Shown here: piece after piece, positions 40,140 to 53,735 of the stretch
How the letters are laid out: each line of letters opens with the position of its first letter
How positions within the stretch are numbered: the first letter of the stretch is position 1
NCBI GenBank assembly: GCA_963930775.1
Contig: OZ005689.1
Span: forward strand, 2,852,001 to 2,916,000
Reading direction: 5' to 3'
Source of the DNA: Cliona cf. orientalis
Taxonomy: Eukaryota > Porifera > Demospongiae > Clionaida > Clionaidae
DNA length: 64,000 bases
Notes under the pieces: generated by a model
What the model was told of the DNA's origin: nothing
The model's input: the letters and a program-made list of their open reading frames with translations, nothing else
Database searches by the model: none
Translations under genes and position numbers: made by a program

Positions 40140-40482
40140 TTGTAGCTACTTTTCTCCCATCCTCCTGCCTTTAGTTTGAAGCAAGACTCTAGAGCGCTTA
40201 GCTATTGAGTGTCATCCACAAAATTGAACGTTTTTTTCCAAAATAATAAGAAAATTATCATAGTGCTAATAGTGTTGACATATTATGGTCTATGTTTACT
40301 GTTGATTCATACAGCCGTTTAGCATTGTGTAAGCATAATATTGTTTATACAAGAGTGCTTTTCCTTTGTTACTGAAACTTGCTTTCCCTTTGTGATTGTC
40401 ATGTGAATTCTACAAGATCCTGGTGCTGCTCACCTGAACCTGAACCCAATTAATATGCGTGTAGTTAACAAGTTAGAATTAA

Positions 40483-40525
40483 AACACATTCTCTTTTATT
40501 TTGTCCAATTCTCTTTTGCAGGATT
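40483..40525 (+). repeat. Left terminal inverted repeat (43 bp)
   Basis: Starts AACACATTCTCTTTTATTTT and ends TTTTGCAGGATT. Identical to the reverse complement of 53384-53426. Preceded by TTAA. Confidence 0.95.
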
Positions 40526-40736
40526 TGAAGTAAATTGAATGATTCTGCTAGCATTAATTAATATTACTGATCAAAATTAGCCACTTTGTCAGCATTGCTG
40601 ATTATAAATCATATCAATATTACCTCCAAAATGCATTTTGTAATAATCAGAGTATTAACATGGTGTATTGTAAGCATTGCTAGATGATAACAAATCTACT
40701 ATAAATTCACTCTCTCAAGATATTATGTAAGCTTAT

Positions 40737-43700
40737 TCAGTGATTTCTGCTTCTTATCTCAGCATAAGCTTTCTTAAGATGCTCGATACTCCTTTTTCGT
40801 AGGTGATTAGTGGTGGTCAGTTCAAAATCAAATAAAATGATCGATGCTTTTGGAATGGTGTCTGTCCAATCAACCATTTTCCTCTTGTTTCTTGGATCCC
40901 TCTGCTTTGCGACCCTCCAGGATTTGCTGTATTCTCCCTCTAGCCACACAATTTCAACTTCTTCATTCAGAACCTTCAGCACTTTCCCCAGCAATGGCTC
41001 CTTATCGCAATTTTCGCAATCAACAGCGACAAGATGGCCAATTTCCACCAAGGAAGTATCACTTACAGCTTGCACTGCATGCTGTTTGCTGCGGTAGGTG
41101 CCATTATACATCTGAAATGACCAAAAGTTTGTAAAATGTATAATTATTATATAGTATACCCTTACTTGCTACCTAAATTTAGGTAACTGCTGCAATTCAG
41201 GCACCAATAACCTTAACAAACAGGGGTGTGGTAGGTACAGCTACCTAAATTTAGGTACCGGCATTGGGGGCTTAGTAGTAACTTTTGTGCGAGTGTGGCT
41301 TTACCTAAATTTAGGTAGCTATACCGATTGCACTAATGCGCATGCGCTGAACTGCGGGCACTAATGCGCATGCGCATGACTCGAATTGGTGTCTCGATAG
41401 GTTGATGGAGGCGCTATCGCAAGGACAATAAATCAGGTGATCGCTCCAAATAAAACAGCTAGGTATTAAAGCTTATTTCTAACGTATAATTATACGTAGA
41501 CCTGATACACACTGTATTAAACACAGCACTGCAGTCTGGATAACGAAGTTTGCAATAATATTGCACTATCTCGTCGACAGTCGATGCAATTTACTAAATG
41601 GAGTGTACTCTCATGTAAGATTAAAGTTGCCAAGGACACTTCAAGTAAATAAAATCGCTATAATACTATAAGGAAGGAGGTGGCTAGGGTTTAGGGCCAT
41701 GATGGTGCTTAAAATATCCTACATGCATACCAGTAATGTCCAGGTATGACTACCATGGGCTACTTTGCTTCGGAGTCCCCAAAATCCAGGATAATACCCA
41801 GAACCAGTTTTGTGATAGTGTTTGCATTAGATTGACTTGTCAATGATAATCATAGAAGTTGCCAATATTTAAGGGGACACTTCAAACAAATTAAATTATA
41901 CTATAAAAGGAAGGAGGACTATAGGGTTTAGGGCCATGATGCTATGAACTTTGAACCATCCTTGAGCTGGTAAGCTTAAAATATCCTACATGCGTACTGG
42001 TAATGACCAGGTATGACTACCTGCAGCTACTTTGACTTTTGTGTGCGTGATGGATCCGGAGTCCCCGAAACCAACTTTATAATAATAGGAGAAAATATTA
42101 TGCATGTAGCTAGTTTTGAAGTGTCCCCTAACAATAGCTGTATAAGATATGAGAGCCATACTAATATCTTATAATATACTTACTCTACAAGGTGGATTCA
42201 ATGTAGCTTCAATCATGGACATTAGACTGGGATCTACTTCATGTTGCGGTTCTGGGATTGTTGATGGACGCTCAGGGTGCTCAACACTATTCCAAATAGC
42301 CTGCATTGCCCAAGCAGCTTCGTGCGTTGAGAGGAGATCATCTAGTTCACGTTCAAGGAATACATCCCAAGCATCAGATGAAGAGGGAGAAATCCATTGC
42401 TTGAATTTTGGAATATCATCCCTCAGCTTATTTACTTCTATTTTATCTGCAGTTGGTGGCAGGATTGGTGGCTCGCCACTAGGCATGTCCTGCATGAAAG
42501 TTCTTATATAGCTTAACAAGTATGGGCACCCACACTCTCATCACCCCATCTACATCCTAAAGCTAGCTGGAAGAGAAAAAATCCGGGCAGTCGCCGGGAA
42601 TCGAACCCAGGCCTAGGGCCACTGACTTGAGCCGCCAGCGCTCTACCACTGAGCCACGACCACCCTTAGGCACCCGAACTCCCCCCTTCCAGCTTTAAGG
42701 GCGAAAGTCAACCCTATACCCAAACTACGTTCATGGAGTCTGCCGGGATAATTAAATCACCAAAGCACAGAGCACCAACCATAGTAATAACATGAAAGTT
42801 CTTAGCTTAACAAGGATGGGCACACACACTCTCATCACCCCATCTACATCCTAAAGCTAGCTGGAAGAGAAAAAATCTGGGCAGCCGCTGGGAATCGAAC
42901 CCAGGGCCACTGACTTGAGCCGCCAGCGCTCTACCACTGAGCCACGACCACCCTTAGGCACCCGAACTCCCCCCCCCCTTCCAGCTTTAAGGGCGAAAGT
43001 CAACCCTATACCCAAACTACGTTCACGGAGTCTGCCGGGATAATTAAATCACCAAAGCACAGAGCACCAACCATAGTAATAACATGAAAGTTCTTAGCTT
43101 AACAAGGATGGGCACACACACTCTCATCACCCCATCTACATCCTAAAGCTAGCTGGAAGAGAAAAAATCTGGGCAGCCGCTGGGAATCGAACCCAGGGCC
43201 ACTGACTTGAGCCGCCAGCGCTCTACCACTGAGCCACGACCACCCTTAGGCACCCGAACTCCCCCCTTCCAGCTTTAAGGACCCTATACCCAAACTACGT
43301 TCATGGAGTCTGCCGGGATAATTAAATCACCAAAGCACAGAGCACCAACCATAGTAATAACATGAAAGTTCTTAGCTTAACAAGGATGGGCACACACACT
43401 CTCATCACCCCATCTACATCCTAAAGCTAGCTGGAAGAGAAAAAATTGGGGCAGCCGCCGGGAATCGAACCCAGGGCCACTGACTTGAGCCGCCAGCGCT
43501 CTACCACTGAGCCATGACCACCCTTAGGCACTCGAACTCCCCCCCCCCCCTTCCAGCTTTAAGGGCGAAAGTCAATCCTATACCCAAACTACGTTCACGG
43601 AGTCTGCCGGGATAATTAAATCACCAAAGCACAGAGCACCAACAATAGTAATAACATGAACGTTCTTAGCTTAACAAGGATGGGCACACACATGAATACA

Positions 43701-46581
43701 TAATTATGTTACACTGAGTGATTGGGGTTTGGTTTGAAATATACTCACATTCAGTGGTAAGATAACTTCATCCTCTTTGCACCAGGGATCACTACTCCAA
43801 CATTTGTAGTAGATTTTCACTTCCCCTTCTGCATCCTTGATAATCTTAAAGCAGTGAGGAGTTGAGTGGCCAGTGAAGGGATTAAGAAAGGGAGTAATCC
43901 AGGTCTTGACATCATGAACAGATGACAGTGTCACCACAGTCGGCTCAGGAGATGTACTCTCTTTTGTAAACTTGATGAGATCTGTAATAATAAATTTTAT
44001 GCTGAAGTTATTATTCATCCAGTAGCAGCTAGTACATCATTAATAATGTACAACAAAAATCAACGGTGAAAATGAGAAAATTCCATGCTAGAATGTCATA
44101 ACAATATTTATAGTGATGGCAGCTGAACTGTACATGTATTAGAGCACCACAGATTCTTCTCTCTATTCATGCCTGCGAGCTAGTATATGTATGCTAGAGC
44201 ACCACAGATATCCTTCATCCCATCAACATTAGTAGTTAAAACAGTTAGACGGAATAACCTAGCTATAGGGCAGTCATGACACCTGGAATTGATCCCAAAA
44301 TTCCCTACTTAATTTGACTACTGCATGAGCTATGCCACCCTCCCGCTCCCATCCCAGGTCATAGTGAGGAATTGCACTTGAGCTATTATAGACAACCCCG
44401 TACTCAAACTGGTGACAAACCTTGGATTGTCTCAATGTTATTCTTTTTTAACTTGTGTGACACTTTTGAAAAGAACTGATCAACATCTTCGTGCGTGTGA
44501 CCAACTGGTAGGAAGTTAATCCTAACCTGCAATAATTGTTATTTGCTCAACATAGATTTTAATGACGAAATCACTGTAAATAAACTTACTTTTTTGAAGA
44601 TTCCTTTTTTTACCAGAAGAGAGCAAAATCCAAGCACATAGCGATTCTTGTTCTCTCTGGAAGTGTTGTCAAGTTGTAGGTAAAGGACAGGAGGAAGTGG
44701 TGCTGAATCACTGATTTTACTCAGCACAGTGCCCAATACTTGTATTGTGAGATTGCTATCATGGGGCCACTGTAGGATGTCGTAGAAGCTATATATGAGC
44801 TTTCCATGTGGTGATCTGTACGTAAAAAGTGAGTTCACAATCAAAGACTTTGGATGTACTCTAGAATTAGCTAGTCTACTTTGCTGCAATAAATGAGAAG
44901 ATTGGAATTTACAGTATCTTAATTTATAGTCACTCCTGCAACTTACAAACCTAGTGTGAACTAGTGCTCCTGTCAGGTGCGTACGGACTCGGTACAAGTT
45001 CTGTGTTGACTTTGTTTCTTGCACCAAAGCTGGGACGTTGGTCTTATTTTGGTCCATGCCATCAATGATGATTGTCACATACTTCTCTGGCTGAGACCGA
45101 GCCTTCTCTTTGTGCAAGTAGTACTTCTTGCGCTCTTGGCTGTATAAAAGTAGGATGATGCTTGTGAGGTTATCAGACATTTGATATAACCAGGTTCAAT
45201 TTAGCTACTGCCTGTAAGCTTTTGAGATTTGGAAGCATGCAAGCTTGCTTACGAAATGATTTGGAGATGTTTCTGAAAATACTCTTGAAATGCAGCTGCT
45301 CCTAACTTCATCCTTTCCTGTGCAAACTTGCAACAGAGATCACACTTAGAGAATCGGCTTTGCTGCATAATCATAGAACATGCCTTAGTGCATATTGATT
45401 TTCAGCAAATTTAAATGCTTGATAGGCATTATCTTGTGCGCATGCTCCAGCAATAAGCCACACCTCTTAATTGACCCACTGCATACACCTCCTGCGCATG
45501 CTCGTTTACTCCATGCGGCGCGCGACCCGGAATTCTAACTTACTTCTGGGATGACTACATGCCGGAAACTCTTGTCCCACAACTTGTAGAACCACGATAG
45601 CGATACGCATTTTTTCTCATCCATCCCTTGCTCTGCTAATTCTTTCTTCATTCTTGCATAAACATCGTGCTTAGTAAGAAAATGAGGCAAATGGATCTGT
45701 TGGATATGTGGCATACGGTCACCAATCTGGCAAAAGAAGCGAGACATCCATGCTTTAGCTTCACTGACTTTTGTTGACTCCACTCGATTTACTGGCTTTC
45801 TCAGAAACTTGATAGCACCTTCCTTAAACTGGTCGTGGAGCTGTTTGTACCGCTTCTGTGAGACACTCAGGACTGAGGTGAAAGCATTGCAGCACAAGAG
45901 TTTACCTTCGATCATGCCCATCAATTCACCATCAGAGGAAGCATTTCTCCCACCAGATATCTGAAAAGAATCAAGAAGGAACTGATTCTGTTCCGTTGTA
46001 TTCTTTAAGGAAAATCTTTCCCTGGATTGTGTAACCTCAACCAAGCTAAGGTTACTTAAGCACTTTCTCTTACAACATGAGGTGCTTAAAAGATCTGCCG
46101 ATGTTATGCTATGTCTTGAGACAGGAGATTCCATGTTGCAACGCTTCCTTTTGTGATTCCTGCGATTTGGTGTGGAATGATTAACAGGAGAATCAACTAG
46201 GACATAATTGTCAATAGACGGTGAGGGAGAGTAGCATACCACTGAAGAAGCTGTTTGTGTGCTCAAGTTCAAGGAAGAGTTGGAGAGTAGATCTAGTGTT
46301 GAAGAATCATATGATATGTCATTGACTTCAGATTGAGCCTGCAGATTTTGGTTTCCGAATATCAAACTTGAAGAGCTTTCATTGAGTTCAATGAGGGAAC
46401 TTGACAATGTACTGCTCGTAGCTGTTTCGTTATTGGCTTCAGATTCCTGATGGAGCAGAGTCTCATCGAAGTAATCACCACTAGTATGAGAAGTTTCATC
46501 AACGAACAACAAACTATCGTCACTAGCAAGAGTACTAGAGTTTCCGCTCACGAAAGTATCGCTAGTAAGGTTACAATTCAT
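40737..46581 (-). CDS. DUF7869-type transposase-like protein of the transposon
   Basis: Exons 45544-46581, 45253-45362, 44951-45139, 44590-44815, 44421-44526, 43749-43981, 42184-42489, 40737-41111; 860 aa, no damage. Residues 1-200 are Ser-rich and disordered. About 270-346 hold SRFFCQIGDRMPH, PHFLTKHDVYARM and SWFYKLWDKSF, and 347-383 a cysteine knot (SKCDLCC). The core reads TIIIDGMDQNKTN (D409), LYLQLDNTSRENKNRY (D495) and INFLPVGHTHEDVDQFFS (E534/D535), which I recognise as the DUF7869 family signature and which has the D...D...E/H spacing of an RNase H-fold nuclease. The exon-3 donor (gtttgt at 44950) was chosen because it joins HTR to SPHGKLIY in frame. The C-terminal exon has IPKASIILFDFELT, often seen at the end of these proteins. 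Role as transposase is inference from motifs and context. Confidence 0.85.
41170..41317. repeat. Left array of a 16-bp perfect palindrome (3 copies)
   Basis: TACCTAAATTTAGGTA at 41170-41185, 41242-41257 and 41302-41317. The inner copy is followed after about 14 bp by GCACTAATGCGCATGCG, which recurs again at about 41,358. Probable binding sites for an element protein (inference). Confidence 0.9.
41630..42130. repeat. Imperfect direct repeat in the last intron of the DUF7869 gene
   Basis: Two copies about 250 bp apart share aaggaagga, tagggtttagggccatgatg, aaaatatcctacatgc and ccaggtatgactac. Confidence 0.75.
42493..43692 (-). repeat. Tandem array of four tRNA-derived (SINE-like) units
   Basis: Four units of about 277-293 bp lie in the intron 42,490-43,748. 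Each holds a tRNA-like block on the minus strand at 42586-42665, 42879-42953, 43171-43245 and 43448-43523. These keep a perfect A box (TGGCTCAGTGG) and B box (GGTTCGATTCC), a D arm GCTC/GAGC and a paired T arm, but position 33 is G, not U, so they are unlikely to be working tRNAs. Copy 1 has a 5-bp insertion in the variable region. Each unit also carries a C tract of 6-10 bases. Confidence 0.85.
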
Positions 46582-47133
46582 TTTCGCTCGAAGACGCTAC
46601 TATACTACTAGCGACGTAGCTAATTCAGTATCAGTAGCTAGCAACAGCAACTTCAATACTGTACATGTGACTTTCTCTTGATATGACAGTAGCTACAGTA
46701 GACAACTGCATGACTGGGTCTTTTCGCGCCAATTTTTGTTGAGACGTACTTACTTACAAAAGTACAAGTGTCCATACAGATATCAGATAGAGGCGCGCCT
46801 ACGAGACTGGCGCGCAATATGCAATATCATAGTGCGACTCGACTGAGCATGCGCACATGTGCTGAATAGCACATGGCAGCGCAAGCGTGCGCACGCGCAA
46901 TCTGCTAGAAGTCCCAAGGCCCTCGCAGCTGCAGAAACCTTCAACGACATTAATAATATTATTAAATTTTTTGTTCTTGCTCGCTAGCTAGCTACCTGCT
47001 GCGCTGCTACCTACCTGACTCGACTGTGACAAAGTGTACGAAGTTACCGGACTGAACTCGACTGAGCAACTCTGATCGAGGACGTACACGCACAGGGACT
47101 GCGGCCGATATTGTGGGATCTGTCAAGTTGAAA
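46582..47133. promoter_or_regulatory. Shared divergent 5' region of the two transposon genes
   Basis: The only gap between the two start codons (552 bp). It is richer in CpG than its surroundings, with GCGCGCC, GAGCATGCGCAC and GCGTGCGCACGCGC stretches around 46,790-46,905. No clear TATA box; a bidirectional promoter is inferred from position. Confidence 0.6.
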
Positions 47134-49963
47134 ATGAGTGGTCATAATTCTAAGCGATGGCACTTCGAATTGGACGATATTGGTGGCGCTGATGGCACAG
47201 TGAAAGGGATAAAAGTCATACGCGGTGGAAAGGAGATACAGAGTCGCAAAGGATTCCCTGTCGGTCACGTAGCTGAATTGCGCTCTCCTTCATCCCGGAA
47301 ATTGTGCAAGCAAGCAGAGAGCTATCTTCCATATGCTGTGGAGGTATGATAATCACGGATTGAATACTGTGATACTGCATGCGCAAGTATTATTTTAATC
47401 CGTATTGAACAGTTAGCTAGCTAGTCAATACTAAACTAAATGTAGCTACAGATCACACTAACTTTGGGTGAGGGGGTATCATTTTAATAATTCTGCCTAC
47501 TGTAGGTTACGTTCGAAGACAAGTCTGCAGTTGTGCTAAACAGGGAGAATTTTGAATGGAACCATGCTACAGCAGCACAATTGAATCAGTGCTTTCGTGA
47601 CACAACTACTGCAGGAGAGTTCATCAGGGAATTTCAAAGGGTGACGACCTTTGATGTTGCTACATTATGCCGTATCCTAAAGAGAGATGTATTGAAGGAA
47701 ATCACTGATGCCTCGGAAACCTCAATGTATGCAAGCTAATTGAGATTCTAAAAATTTGCAACACATATACATGTAGCTAGCTAGCTACTAAGTTTCAATT
47801 CAATATGGTACAGGTTAAGTGATTTAGAAGATACCAATAGCTCACAACTACTGGAGCAATCACAGCAGACAGACATGACCAACAAACGTCCTCGATACGA
47901 AGGAGATGAAGCAGCGTCTTCAAATTCACCACCTAATAAAGTACCGAAACATCAAAACACCCTAGATGATGCTATATTGGCCAAAAGAATTGGTATGTTA
48001 GCAAATTAAGCTTTATGTTTTTATTCAGCTATGATGACTTGTGATGCTATAGCTAGCTATAGTTGTATAGCTATATCCTTGAAGTCACCTTGAATGGGAC
48101 ATCTGTAGTGTGCCACAATGGCTCCATGTGATGTGCTGGAATGGCCATAGCATATAGGGAGGCGCACGCAACAATGGTTCGTTCATGCATACTAATATTA
48201 TACGTATACGCGGTATGGATGGGAGGGGCTGGGGGGTTTGGGGATGGGTTGCCAATGGTTAGCAGGGTTAGTCTCTAGGGTTTATCTATACGTGATATGT
48301 ATGGGAGGGGTGGGGGTTTGGGGATGGGTTGCCAATAGTTAGCAGGGTTAGTCTTTAGGGATTGTCTATGATAGGGGGGAAATAATGATTGGCAGCAGCA
48401 ACAACAGCGGTGGTGTAGTGGTTGGGGCTCTTGTGTGTGGAATAGAATGCAGCGGCTTCAAATCTCGCTTTATGCTTTGATTTTTTTTTCACTTGTCGAA
48501 ATTTTTCTAAGTTCTCGCGAGCCATTCCAGCATGGAGCCAGTATAGCATGCTGCAACTTATTATACCTAGTTGCCCTCTAGTCTCCGGCATGAATAGGCA
48601 CGAGATAAACATGTGCACATGCAATAATATATAATAATTATATAGATATTATCATAATTATTATCTGATCCATGCGCATGCATGCATGTTGCACATGTGC
48701 TGTAGTTCCGTATGCATTCAGTGCACACGTATATCTACAGTTTATGCACACCCATTTGAGGATAATTTTTATACTGCAGGTATACTTGAGCTCCCTGTAA
48801 CCTGCCTATGTGATACCCCTAGTCCAAGGCTTATCCGGAGCCTTGATGGGCAGTTCCTAAAGCATCTGAAGGAAAAAATGGCAGAAGATCCGTCCTCTCC
48901 GGGAGTACCTCCAATAGCTGTGCTTTGTAAAGATGTGAAGGATGCAGCAGATTTCAGTAAACGTTTGAAGGGTGTTTACAAATATGAAGTGCTTGGAGGT
49001 CAGCATACGAGCAAAGCGAGAATAGAGCTGCACGAAGAGCATCCCGACAATCCTCTGTTTGCTACAATTCTTGCAGAGGTTTATGCTGGCCTTAGTGATG
49101 ATGAAGCATTGCGATTGGGTTCAAGACACAATATTAATGGGCATTTTATACACAAAATGACCCATCGTGACTATGTAAGTTTCATTCTAGCCCGTTGCTA
49201 TGCAGTTACTAAGGTATACAAGGTACTGTATATGTGATACAGTCCCTCCTTGTAGGGCTCATGTCCATATGTTTACTATTATACAGTTCCTGAGGGCCAG
49301 GGCAAACATTCATACAGTTCTTGGGGGCTAAAAACATGTTTGTTGTATCCATGGAAACAATGGGCTAGAAAATAGTTATTGACCAATCCCTCGCTTTGTA
49401 TGCAGTATAGAAGCACTCATCCCTCGGGCTTTGCCCTCGGGATTTGTGCTTCTATACTGCATACAAACCTTGGGAGTTGGTCAATAACTATTACTAGTAA
49501 CAATAGGTATAACTATATATCGAGAGTAATAACTAGCTCTGTCGGTTATGTAGGTGGAAGCATGCAGATCTAAGCTGTTTTTGATGGCAAGAGAAATAGG
49601 GTACCAAGGCAATGATACACCGTCACCAAGTGGTGCATGGAAAAAGACATGCATGCAGTGCATTCTCCCAGCAGTAAGTTATAAATTTAATATTGAAGTT
49701 TAAGCAGCTAGGGATGGATAATAATCTTTATTTTCTAGGACATATCAAGATCACAGAAGGATAACATTTTCTCCCAAGCTTGCTTCACCACAGAAGCATG
49801 GGTCCTAGCAACACACGTTATGGATAAATATGAAGAAGGAGGCCTCAAAGATCAAAGGCTTCAGAAAAAGCATTTGGTTTCGAAGCCAGAATTTATGCAG
49901 CAGCATTTCCAATCCATTCAAGCCCTACCTCCATCATTTCAGGTGAATAATGGTACTCTATAT

Positions 49964-49995
<32 letters not shown>

Positions 49996-52900
49996 GCTTG
50001 CGCTCTTCCCTTGGTGTTCATCCCATGCAAGAGCAACTATCATGAATTTGAGTTGGACTGTGCATGCAAACTTGAGAGCATCTCTGGTGGGATGACACAC
50101 CAGCATTTCTTGATACAAGTATAGCAATATATGATTGTATGTAAGGTAGCTACAATGAACAATTCTTTCAAGCAGAGCAACCGTTTTGGCTTTAGAATCC
50201 ATATTTGTAGGTGGCTTGAGCAAGTACACCATTTACTACGTTAATACTTATAAAATATCTAGATCGAGATGCTAAATGCTCTCCTCAACAAGGAGAAGAG
50301 TCTTAAAGAAGTAAAAGAAGCTGCATCCAAGTTCCGCTCCCTGCAAGCTATCCAGCGAGTATTCTCTCGGACAGTGAATGTGAAGTGGGATGATGCTAGA
50401 GAGCGATTTCCCAACTTTACAGCAGATGAGCGGCTCCTTCAATTTAGATCACTATCTTTTGCGAAGGATGTACCACCACCATTCCTGGCATATTGTCAAG
50501 CAGCTTTACGTAGTGAGATTCAAGCTGAATGTCATGATTCACTGTACCAGCTGAAAGGGTGCAAGGCATATACACTACAGCATAACATTCTGACACTGTC
50601 ATACACAGACATACATGCTGAGAAGATACCATTTAGTGGATCTCATCTCTTTCTGGCCCGCATTGCTGAGGTACATATATATACACAGTTATGGTAGATT
50701 AACTGAATCAGTTTCAACAATAATTATAGGACATGACAGCAGATGATATGTGCAAACTAGTGTATACTAGCCGTCAGCTCAATACCCTACCAGACAGTCC
50801 TCTCACAATATTCAACTGCATCATTTTATGCTCAGTCTCCCAGATGGATATGGTGGCAGCAGAGGTGAAGCGATGTTACGACAATATTGACAGAGCTTAT
50901 TGGAGTCACTCATCCCCATCTTCATCAGGTTAGATATACAAGTGCAGTGGAGTAGGAAGCAATCGCGTGTTGCAGGGGCCACCGATACAAATTGTGGGTA
51001 TGGTTTGATTACTGAATTTTATGACCATAATTATTCCTTTGTAAAAGTTGTATTTCAGTAATTTAAACCAGTCTTTTATGAAGAAAGTCTGATATAATAT
51101 GATAAAAATTTGAAGAATAACTACACAAGGGTTATGTATCAAGCCGGATTATTGCATGGGGGGGGGGGGGGGGGGGGGACCAGTGGTCCCCGCTGGACCC
51201 CTGGTTCCTACTCCACTGAAGTGTCATGACATTGTATTAAGTGATTATACTTTAAGAAGAGAATGTTAGCTACACATTCTAACAATATACAGCACGATGT
51301 GTGATCAGCTTATTTACGTTGGCTTTGATTGGACAGTTATTGTGGTATAATAGTTTCCCAGGGCCATGCAGATTGTCTGGTCAGGGATATAGCATAGGAT
51401 ATGTACTACGTGAATACCGGTAGCTTATTTAGAGAGGCAACAGTGCAGCTGTCTAGGTATGTCTAGATCACAATGGTATGTTCAAAAAAACATATTACAC
51501 ATTGGCTCTAGACAGTTGAACAGTTTCTCAGTACCAGATTGTCTAGCCAAGGCTGCTATTTAGTGATTCCATCATATCGAGCAACCGTGCATACCATAAC
51601 TATAATAGTGTACATTCATGATTATAATAATATTTAACTGGCACTTTCATTATGAATACAGGTGCTTCAATGGGAATGGTGTCTACTGTCAGTGGCATAA
51701 TTGTGGGACACTTCTCGATTGATGGAAAGTTGAAGGCGGACCATTTCAATTTCTCGAGACCAATTCCCAACTTCTTTCAGGTCCAGGATGAGAGAGAGCT
51801 ATACAAAGCTTTGCTAGAAGCTTTCAGCTTCACCGGACAAATGGTTCTGGACACAATGACTAAAGGTAAATGTTAGCTGCTATCAATAATATGTGTTAGA
51901 GCCCCATCCATATTAGGATAAGCCTTAAATTATCGGGGTTATTCAACAGTGAAACCACTAATAATTGACTCTTTGCAACAGACAACTAGAGCTCTATAGA
52001 GCACATACCCCGCGCGCTCTGTAGCCACTTTAGCGTAGTATCTGAGGCATAGCTGTTTCGTGACTTGACGACCTTTTCCAATGCAGAGCTTGAGCATGCG
52101 CAGTCGCATCGGTTATGCTAAAGGAGTGGGTGTGGTCGATAAACCACAGGCATGCCGAACAGAAAATGCACGATTTGTAACACTAGTAAGTCTTTTTGAG
52201 CAATTCGAAGCGTGTATAAACCAGTTTATCACCGACACCTATCGATTTCCTGTGCTTACAGCACGCATAAATGCCTAGAACGCGAGATCTGGCGATTTTC
52301 GTGCCGACAACGACGACAACGACGACGACAGACAATTGCTTTACCCCTTGCGCATGCGCGCGGGGTAATTAGCTACCATGCCCGTCATTGCTCTTTCTAT
52401 AGAAGAGTAGGTTGGATCAGAATTACTGATTTGGTTTCTTGGGGAGGGGATCCAGGACTTAATGTCATAATGAGGCTAACTTCCACCCCCCCTCCCCCAA
52501 GTTGAAGTGTCCTCTAGCTCTTAAGCTTGTCTGATCAAAGTATAATAGCTACCAGATATCTTTCCTGCAATTTCAGAGCCTAATTTGTATTAGAGAATAA
52601 GGAGTGGTCATTCTACGCCAAATATAGGTATTGCATTGCGTGTGCATACATCTACGGTGCATACAACGTTTGATTTAGGAACACAAACCCTGCCTGAAAG
52701 ACTTTAGACACTATATTGTAGAGTTATCTACTAGCCAATTTACCATGAAGTTTGAACCAGAATATTTCGTATCTACCAGAGTATCATCCATTGTTGAACT
52801 AGCGCCCTCAAAGTGTGCTGGTATTTAACACTAGCCATAGTTGCTATCCCAAGTAACGTCCTCGCAAGTTGGACCACCAACCACACCCACTACGCATGCG

Positions 52901-53218
52901 CATTAGTGCACTCGCGTCGAGTCTACCTAAATTTAGGTACACGATAATAATCAATTATAAGAATTTGGTGCTTAGATAGCATGTACCTAAATTTAGGTAT
53001 GCATACATATCATGGTATGCTCTTTTATTGCAGGGAAGGGTGCATCAGCTGCACTACTGGCTGGCAGAAGTGTCATTTCTATTGACAATGATGTCACACT
53101 CACCAAATCTGCTCTGCGAAGTGCTATATCGTCAGGAATTTCTAGGATAGAAGGGAGTGATGCTGAAGAGTGTGATGAAAATGAGCAAAATGAAGAAGAG
53201 AATGAGAACAATGCTTAA
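47134..53218 (+). CDS. ParB/Srx-like domain fused to a decayed DNA-methyltransferase motif
   Basis: Exons 47134-47343, 47506-47726, 47814-47992, 48780-49174, 49554-49673, 49739-49942, 50263-50670, 50730-50928, 51662-51865, 53034-53218; 774 aa, intact. The ATG at 47134 is used; no upstream in-frame ATG is seen. Residues 205-345 match a ParB N-terminal domain: SLDGQFLKHLKEKM, VPPIAVL, YKYEVLGGQHTSKARIEL (276-283 replaces the usual GERRxxA loop), then LSDDEALRLGSRHNIN. Near the C end EAFSFTGQMVLDTMTKGKGA and LLAGRSVISID (690-731) follow motif I of beta-class N4/N6 methylases (VLDPFxGSGTT ... GRxxIGIE), with D709 and D731 kept but the FxGxG core changed. No DPPY/NPPF catalytic motif was found, so catalysis is doubtful. 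The last 25 residues are acidic. A DNA-binding partner of the transposase is a reasonable guess. Confidence 0.8.
48200..48370. repeat. Two direct repeats of about 75 bp in intron 3 of the ParB-like gene
   Basis: ggggtttggggatgggttgccaat followed by agttagcagggttagtct occurs twice. Next to it 48,395-48,470 looks like a weak tRNA-derived sequence on the plus strand (A-box-like tggtgtagtgg, B-box-like gcttcaaatct). Confidence 0.6.
49371..49492. mobile_element. Hairpin MITE (122 bp) in intron 4 of the ParB-like gene
   Basis: Near-perfect inverted repeat: aatagttattgaccaa, ttgtatgcagtatagaagca and ccctcggg on the left mirrored on the right, with a 5-base centre. Confidence 0.85.
49964..49994. repeat. 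Poly-G tract (31)
   Basis: Uninterrupted G run in an intron; similar runs at 51,158-51,178 (G), 10,666-10,689 (G) and 57,476-57,493 (C). Confidence 0.9.
52924..52999. repeat. Right array of the 16-bp palindrome (2 copies)
   Basis: TACCTAAATTTAGGTA at 52924-52939 and 52984-52999, 60 bp apart exactly as the inner pair on the left. Read inward from the right end, the inner copy is followed after a similar gap by GCACTAATGCGCATGCG, matching the left side in mirror image. Confidence 0.9.
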
Positions 53219-53383
53219 AAATATATATACATAATACAAGATTTATGCAATGTAACTATAGTCTCTAACTTCTCCAAGTATATATAGCTGTTCTATTAGC
53301 ATACTTCACAACATACAAGAATTTCAACTGAATTATACTGATTTCTTAGCATCAGTGCTAAGAGAATGGGTTAAAATTGCTTG

Positions 53384-53426
53384 AATCCTGCAAAAGAGAA
53401 TTGGACAAAATAAAAGAGAATGTGTT
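53384..53426 (-). repeat. Right terminal inverted repeat (43 bp)
   Basis: Exact reverse complement of 40483-40525, followed by TTAA at 53427-53430. Confidence 0.95.
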
Positions 53427-53735
53427 TTAAGTTAAAGTGCCCTATTATAAAGAGCTTATATTACTGTTATATTATACAAAGTATTGTATACAAACTAGTA
53501 GAAGAGCCACATGAGAATGTAGCAACTCAGCTGTATCTCTTCAAGTGATATTAGCTTAAATCCCATTCCTAAATGTATAGCTTTCTTAGTAGCATACATG
53601 TAGTTATGTACACATATCTACAGTTTTGAAAAATTTTGGCGTTATCATTATCACAATTATACTTCACAGGTAGATACTATATTAATTTTTTGCGTATATT
53701 TTGCAGCATAATGAGCTCCTAGAGCAGTGGCAGTT

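Follow-up and report, generated by a model that had tools for sequence, protein, structure and literature searches.

What moves a large transposon that carries two genes, and what would the second of them be for? The question is raised by a stretch of 64,000 nucleotides from the sponge Cliona cf. orientalis (assembly GCA_963930775.1, contig OZ005689.1, positions 2,852,001 to 2,916,000), hereafter called the window. An element of 12.9 kb, at positions 40479-53430, carries two divergent genes, one for an 860-aa protein of the Pfam family DUF7869 and one for a 774-aa protein, here called ParB-like. The element is an intact, recently mobile DNA transposon; it is best explained as an autonomous one, presumably moving by a cut-and-paste route. 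The explanation of the whole that we consider fairly probable is that of a Sola-1-like autonomous transposon, in which the DUF7869 protein would be the transposase and the ParB-like protein an accessory factor that binds palindromes near the ends.

Borders, copies and target sites

The borders of the element are the following, in coordinates of the window:

40479..40482, no strand: left copy of the target site duplication, TTAA (the paralogous empty sites have a single TTCA or TTGA there)
40483..40525, plus strand: left terminal inverted repeat, 43 bp, beginning AACACATTCTC
53384..53426, minus strand: right terminal inverted repeat, 43 bp
53427..53430, no strand: right copy of the target site duplication, TTAA

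The original prediction for this locus, made from the letters alone, had announced perfect 43-bp inverted ends flanked on both sides by TTAA, and this was confirmed. The repeats are perfect over 43 bp, or 47 bp if the flanking TTAA is counted in, and extend imperfectly to 80 bp with 81% identity. They are not chance matches, since the 47-bp end pattern with up to three mismatches occurs at 10 places in the 216.8-Mb host genome, two of them the window's own, and the pattern read backward at none. It had also been proposed that such ends should recur in pairs. Indeed, a DNA search for ends, which scored 40 of 63 candidates, contributed to a list of 65 distinct ends that form 21 inward-facing pairs within 30 kb, two of which, spanning 8.8 and 24.8 kb, might be accidental or nested. 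For this pairing count, 33 of the 39 entries of one list were used, four duplicates and two entries with three mismatches being left out.

Empty sites, likewise expected among paralogues of the locus, were found as well. The joined flanks of the element match by BLAST two paralogous loci that cross the target without the element and have a single 4-mer there (TTCA and TTGA); of the right flank, BLAST aligns only 11 and 4 bases, and both loci read as empty sites. Parts of both flanks also match many other places in the window; the element thus lies within a series of similar sequences that look like paralogous genes.

A sister copy (C1:8310482-8327906) measures 17,424 bp, additional sequence having been inserted into it. 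In long BLAST segments it is 98.9-99.8% identical to the window element, and both of its genes are open in the models, with 857 of 860 and 772 of 774 amino acids identical. Thus, with copies elsewhere, the 21 pairs of ends and a sister copy open in both genes, the proposal of an intact transposon was borne out. A third copy (C1:23115661-23128735) has diverged further, its aligned DNA segments being mostly 67-79% identical to the window element; its ParB-like gene is an open model of 765 aa with ten corresponding exons. Between the third copy and the window, silent sites are saturated (proportions of synonymous differences, pS, of 0.77 and 0.79) and the ratio of nonsynonymous to synonymous rates (dN/dS) is not obtainable. 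The proportion of nonsynonymous differences (pN) is 0.22 for the ParB-like gene and 0.135 for exons 2-8 of the DUF7869 gene, exon 1 being left out. Because amino-acid changes are so few against saturated silent sites, the comparison indicates that selection has kept both proteins. Four complete non-autonomous copies (2.4-3.8 kb) were also read. They have no tblastn match to either protein and, apart from simple G runs, only their termini align with the window element in BLAST, together with a palindrome (see below) in one row.

All seven complete copies that were read are bordered by a matching 4-bp duplication (TTAA, TAGT, TTAA, TTGA, TCAA, TTAT and ATGA). Besides the window copy, only the copy on contig C17 has TTAA. 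Since the other five duplications differ from it, the target is an AT-rich 4-mer and not TTAA alone, and the designation "TTAA transposon" had to be abandoned. The element has defined inverted ends and duplicates 4 bp on insertion at AT-rich 4-mers. The TTAA-only target of piggyBac and Kolobok is thereby ruled out. That the element belongs to one of these types all the same, as the TTAA duplications of the window and C17 copies could suggest, is hardly credible, given the five deviating duplications and the fact that DUF7869 is the sole Pfam match over the cut-off in the 860-aa protein.

The DUF7869 gene as probable transposase

The gene models confirm another part of the original prediction, namely two divergent genes of 860 and 774 aa with every exon junction in phase; all introns of both genes are GT-AG. 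The DUF7869 gene and a second, smaller element that bears on its role are located as follows:

40737..46581, minus strand: DUF7869 gene, probable transposase, 860 aa, 8 exons (Pfam PF25273; open in the sister copy)
46581-45544, 45362-45253, 45139-44951, 44815-44590, 44526-44421, 43981-43749, 42489-42184, 41111-40737, minus strand: exons of the DUF7869 gene
Locus L057 (contig C10), 2034-4625: example copy of a 2.6-kb single-gene DUF7869 element, with five other copies elsewhere

The 860-aa protein is a clear member of DUF7869, a family without assigned function in Pfam: residues 426-621 match PF25273 with E=1.3e-71 and 240.6 bits, for a cut-off of 26. This match inside a bordered element, together with the 2.6-kb element, gives the family the concrete transposon context that had been foreseen for it. 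Two acidic residues are common to the window protein and its distant single-gene relative, D495 (in LDN) and D537 (in GHTxxxVD), so that the third acidic residue is D537 and not, as first proposed, E534 or D535. The candidate upstream acidic residue is D409 or D412, D409 lying 17 aa upstream of the Pfam match. As far as sequence can tell, the order and spacing of D409, D495 and D537 fit a DDE-like, RNase H-like pattern, and the RNase H fold suggested at first is a putative one. A piece of the single-gene relative weakly matches a DDE transposase family (PF07592, E 0.021, below the family cut-off), and a PDB profile search with DUF7869 returned no transposase.

The host genome contains at least 165 DUF7869 matches, among them the separate 2.6-kb element. 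This element has a single intronless DUF7869 open reading frame (ORF) of 699 aa from stop to stop, which is the only ORF of at least 120 aa in the copy read, and inverted ends of its own starting GTGAAGG. Its six copies are 98-100% identical and apparently spread very recently; the pattern of one end matched one place, and that of the other end found the remaining copies. A 4-bp duplication, read by eye, borders four of the six (ATAT three times, ATGT once). The best argument for DUF7869 as the catalyst is precisely that this mobile unit has it as the only ORF of at least 120 aa, and the DUF7869 protein of the window element is thus very probably its transposase. It might instead be cargo or an accessory, the element being mobilized by another factor that went undetected. 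The catalytic role is deduced from sequence, and the single-sequence AlphaFold models of the DUF7869 protein and of the ParB-like protein have a mean predicted local distance difference test score (pLDDT) of only 37, which leaves room for such a factor. However, six near-identical copies of a single-gene element, DDE-like acidic motifs and the weak match to a DDE family make this alternative very improbable.

Outside the host, no relatives were found in viral contigs (searched with the 860-aa protein, with 695 aa of the single-gene protein, a query that begins near its first Met, and with the ParB-like alignment), nor in a genome contig collection (DUF7869 alignment) or in phage records.

Three further observations concern this gene and its family. 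In intron 6 (window 42509-43692) a unit of 292 bp is repeated in tandem about four times, and every repeat holds a sequence resembling tRNA-Glu(CTC) that scores over the Rfam tRNA threshold; the array is also present in the sister copy. Intron 3 (44816-44950) is 135 nt long, in frame and stop-free, and its retention would keep the protein open. Of the 126 DUF7869 clusters listed, 86 are strongly concentrated in less than a tenth of the genome, the final 20.5 Mb of contig C1 (beyond 17 Mb).

The ParB-like gene and the subterminal palindromes

The second gene lies head to head with the first:

46582..47133, no strand: region between both start codons, 552 bp, presumed bidirectional promoter (from the gene models)
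47134..53218, plus strand: ParB-like accessory gene, 774 aa, 10 exons (open in the sister copy; the third copy has a 765-aa model)
47134-47343, 47506-47726, 47814-47992, 48780-49174, 49554-49673, 49739-49942, 50263-50670, 50730-50928, 51662-51865, 53034-53218, plus strand: exons of the ParB-like gene
48780..49174, plus strand: exon 4, ParB-like region (YKYEVLGGQHTSKAR ... LSDDEALRLGSRHN; weak evidence)
51662..53218, plus strand: exons 9-10, methyltransferase-like remnant (VLDTMTKGKGASAALLAGRSVISIDND), in a protein without motif IV (weak evidence)

The divergent arrangement recurs. Matches to the ParB-like protein number 64 in the genome and were grouped into 30 clusters. A divergent DUF7869 gene lies within 25 kb of at least 17 of these; displaced controls averaged 0.43 and never exceeded 3 in 500 trials. 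The count used 38 of the 64 ParB-like matches, collapsed by hand (further pieces of the same three copies were left out), and 126 listed DUF7869 places, so that 17 is a lower bound; several of the 30 clusters, being copies of a single family, do not count independently. The divergent DUF7869/ParB-like pair is a stable unit.

The name given to this protein, ParB/methyltransferase-like, stood in part: weak sequence resemblance to each was found, but no family match over cut-off, and motif IV is absent. The 774-aa protein has no Pfam match at E<=1. Exon 4 and three relatives have in common a GG[QN]H motif followed by HN, and three ParB landmarks line up in the same order in a profile-profile comparison (hhalign) with three ParB proteins from bacteria. 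Towards its C-terminus the 774-aa protein is similar to one section of the N4/N6 DNA methyltransferases, which account for four of eight PDB matches (three enzymes, E 0.042 to 0.55). The catalytic motif IV, [DNS]PP[YFWH], is absent from all three gene models (window, sister and third copy); the tail is therefore probably a remnant, inactive as a methyltransferase. PF01555 has no match in the host genome searched exon by exon, where introns could hide one, and with motif IV missing as well, an active methyltransferase is thought unlikely.

The ParB-like and methyltransferase-like labels are thus weak ones, and the protein could belong to a transposon family of other origin, resembling ParB by chance. 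The lack of any PHROGs, Pfam or NCBIfam match over the cut-off, and a ParB profile comparison with P=0.036 that one of 60 shuffles outscored, speak for that origin. The colinearity of the ParB alignment speaks against it, as does the fact that, counted as distinct enzymes, the top three PDB matches of the tail are DNA methyltransferases, a domain reported beside ParB in an algal element according to the accessible text of PMC12477816. On balance we regard a chance resemblance as unlikely. Intron 4 of this gene contains a hairpin (window 49387-49475) with 43-bp arms, 84% complementary, and a DNA folding z-score of -10.6; it is perhaps a nested miniature element.

A possible target for the ParB-like protein lies just inside the ends of the element, where the 16-bp palindrome TACCTAAATTTAGGTA occurs three times on the left and twice on the right:

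41170..41185, no strand: palindrome TACCTAAATTTAGGTA, left subterminal site 1
41242..41257, no strand: palindrome, left subterminal site 2
41302..41317, no strand: palindrome, left subterminal site 3
52924..52939, no strand: palindrome, right subterminal site 1
52984..52999, no strand: palindrome, right subterminal site 2

Their distance from the end is 0.69-0.84 kb on the left and 0.43-0.51 kb on the right, and the 64-kb window has no other site at up to two mismatches. Genome-wide there are 65 sites, and none for the pattern read backward. Of the 50 sites used for measuring distances, 43 have a listed end no more than 5 kb away; this zone around the ends makes up 0.18% of the genome. Allowing two mismatches, a palindrome is present within 1.5 kb inward of 27 of 30 distinct ends (18 exactly) and outward of none; these 30 were kept after leaving out duplicate loci of the same ends. 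With 200 scrambled palindromes of the same letters, a mean of 0.06 ends and a maximum of 3 were matched. The palindromes are confined to the inner side of the family ends. The third copy has retained them at either end, with two mismatches on the right, in stretches beyond those that BLAST can align, and all four complete non-autonomous copies have sites at up to two mismatches near both ends. At C5:4183363 palindromes adjoin an end of the window family; any link to the gene pair on C5 is conjectural.

These data suggest the following scheme. The 860-aa DUF7869 protein would recognize the 43-bp ends, cut there and insert the element at AT-rich 4-mers, leaving the 4-bp duplication. The 774-aa protein would be an accessory DNA-binding protein, made of a ParB-like region and a probably inactive methyltransferase remnant, which would most likely bind the 16-bp palindromes 0.4-0.8 kb inside both ends and, once bound, help to pair or mark the far-apart ends. 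That the ParB-like protein has its binding site in the palindrome, and assists in pairing ends that are 12 kb apart, is a tentative proposal, to which we give somewhat less than an even chance. Equally tentative is its main rival on the question of who binds, in which the transposon is the same, the palindromes are subterminal sites for the transposase itself, and nicking DNA, controlling silencing or protecting the element would be the task of the ParB-like protein. Many DNA transposons carry repeated subterminal motifs to which the transposase binds, and this makes the rival plausible. Circumstantial evidence points the other way: the 2.6-kb DUF7869 element, which has no ParB-like gene, has neither this palindrome nor any repeated one, and a perfect 16-bp palindrome in small groups fits a parS-like site. 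A nicking role has a precedent, since ParB-type domains are capable of nicking DNA; a fusion of one with an adenine methylase was reported as a nonspecific nickase (accessible text of PMC5512222).

Several other observations do not sit well with the proposed scheme. Two ends of the family (C9:3547700 and C2:1040007) have no partner end in 20 kb read inward. In the third copy, the DUF7869 model is without an intact exon 1 and its exon 4 is short. Two of the six copies of the 2.6-kb element, both on contig C14, have no matching duplication. No divergent DUF7869 neighbour is found, among the listed matches, at 13 of the 30 ParB-like clusters, and the ParB-like region has no PDB profile match. Three of the 30 ends have no palindrome within 1.5 kb inward at up to two mismatches, and many of the 30 are ends of related non-autonomous copies, which makes them dependent on one another. 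Finally, a ParB-like/DUF7869 locus on contig C7 (L056), where element ends are indistinguishable among tandem repeats, has no such palindrome, its only repeated one being a simple repeat.

Relation to known systems

Sola1 elements have 4-bp target site duplications, and a duplication of this length was found at each of the seven complete copies read. Architecture and the length of the duplication are what suggests a kinship of the window element with Sola-1. The original prediction knew of no described element with a comparable gene pair, and here a published precedent corrects it: in Sola1-1_Ec32 of Ectocarpus, a gene combining ParB and a DNA methyltransferase lies opposite a Sola-1 transposase gene, and the authors cite similar proteins from transposons of green and red algae (accessible text of PMC12477816). 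The likeness is one of architecture, an accessory gene placed opposite the transposase gene. The Ectocarpus element is 21.5 kb long and encodes a protein of 1104 aa, with a methyltransferase predicted to make N4-methylcytosine or N6-methyladenine (4mC or 6mA), whereas the window element is 12.9 kb long, with a 774-aa protein that lacks motif IV. The accessible text describes Sola1-1_Ec32 neither as a TTAA element nor as DUF7869, and makes no mention of subterminal palindromes. The precedent makes the ParB and methyltransferase labels credible and lowers the novelty of the pair. Sola2 elements are also similar in their AT-rich 4-bp duplications, inverted ends and, in some families, extra genes; they differ in that the extra genes are Fanzor1, the duplications are AWWT or similar, and no ParB-like gene is mentioned in the accessible part of PMC3627910.

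The combination of a ParB-like region with clustered 16-bp palindromes, the predicted sites, is reminiscent of the bacterial ParB-parS system, from which the protein differs in that GGQH replaces the GERR box and no family-level sequence match is found. One could go further and see here a eukaryotic transposon with a partition-like module, in which the ParB-like protein would load at parS-like palindromes, spread or clamp, and hold both ends of an element of 13-17 kb together for the DUF7869 transposase (DDD) to act on; the methyltransferase of the algal type would have decayed, with the role in DNA binding left over. We consider this fuller version doubtful.

A literature search, mostly outside subscription journals, found no paper naming DUF7869 or PF25273, and for ParB with transposons the Ectocarpus paper, as far as its text is accessible, was the only eukaryotic case. 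The gene-pair architecture itself has its published precedent in Sola1-1_Ec32 (PMC12477816, accessible text). New, as far as searched, are the palindromes, the probable decay of the methyltransferase, and the assignment of DUF7869 as a probable transposase whose ends and duplications are defined. A Pfam family of unassigned function thus acquires a probable function, that of a transposase acting on defined ends and leaving a 4-bp duplication. To the ParB-carrying transposons reported from brown, green and red algae (accessible text of PMC12477816) a further host is added, and exact candidate sites are supplied for the accessory protein, making its role directly testable.

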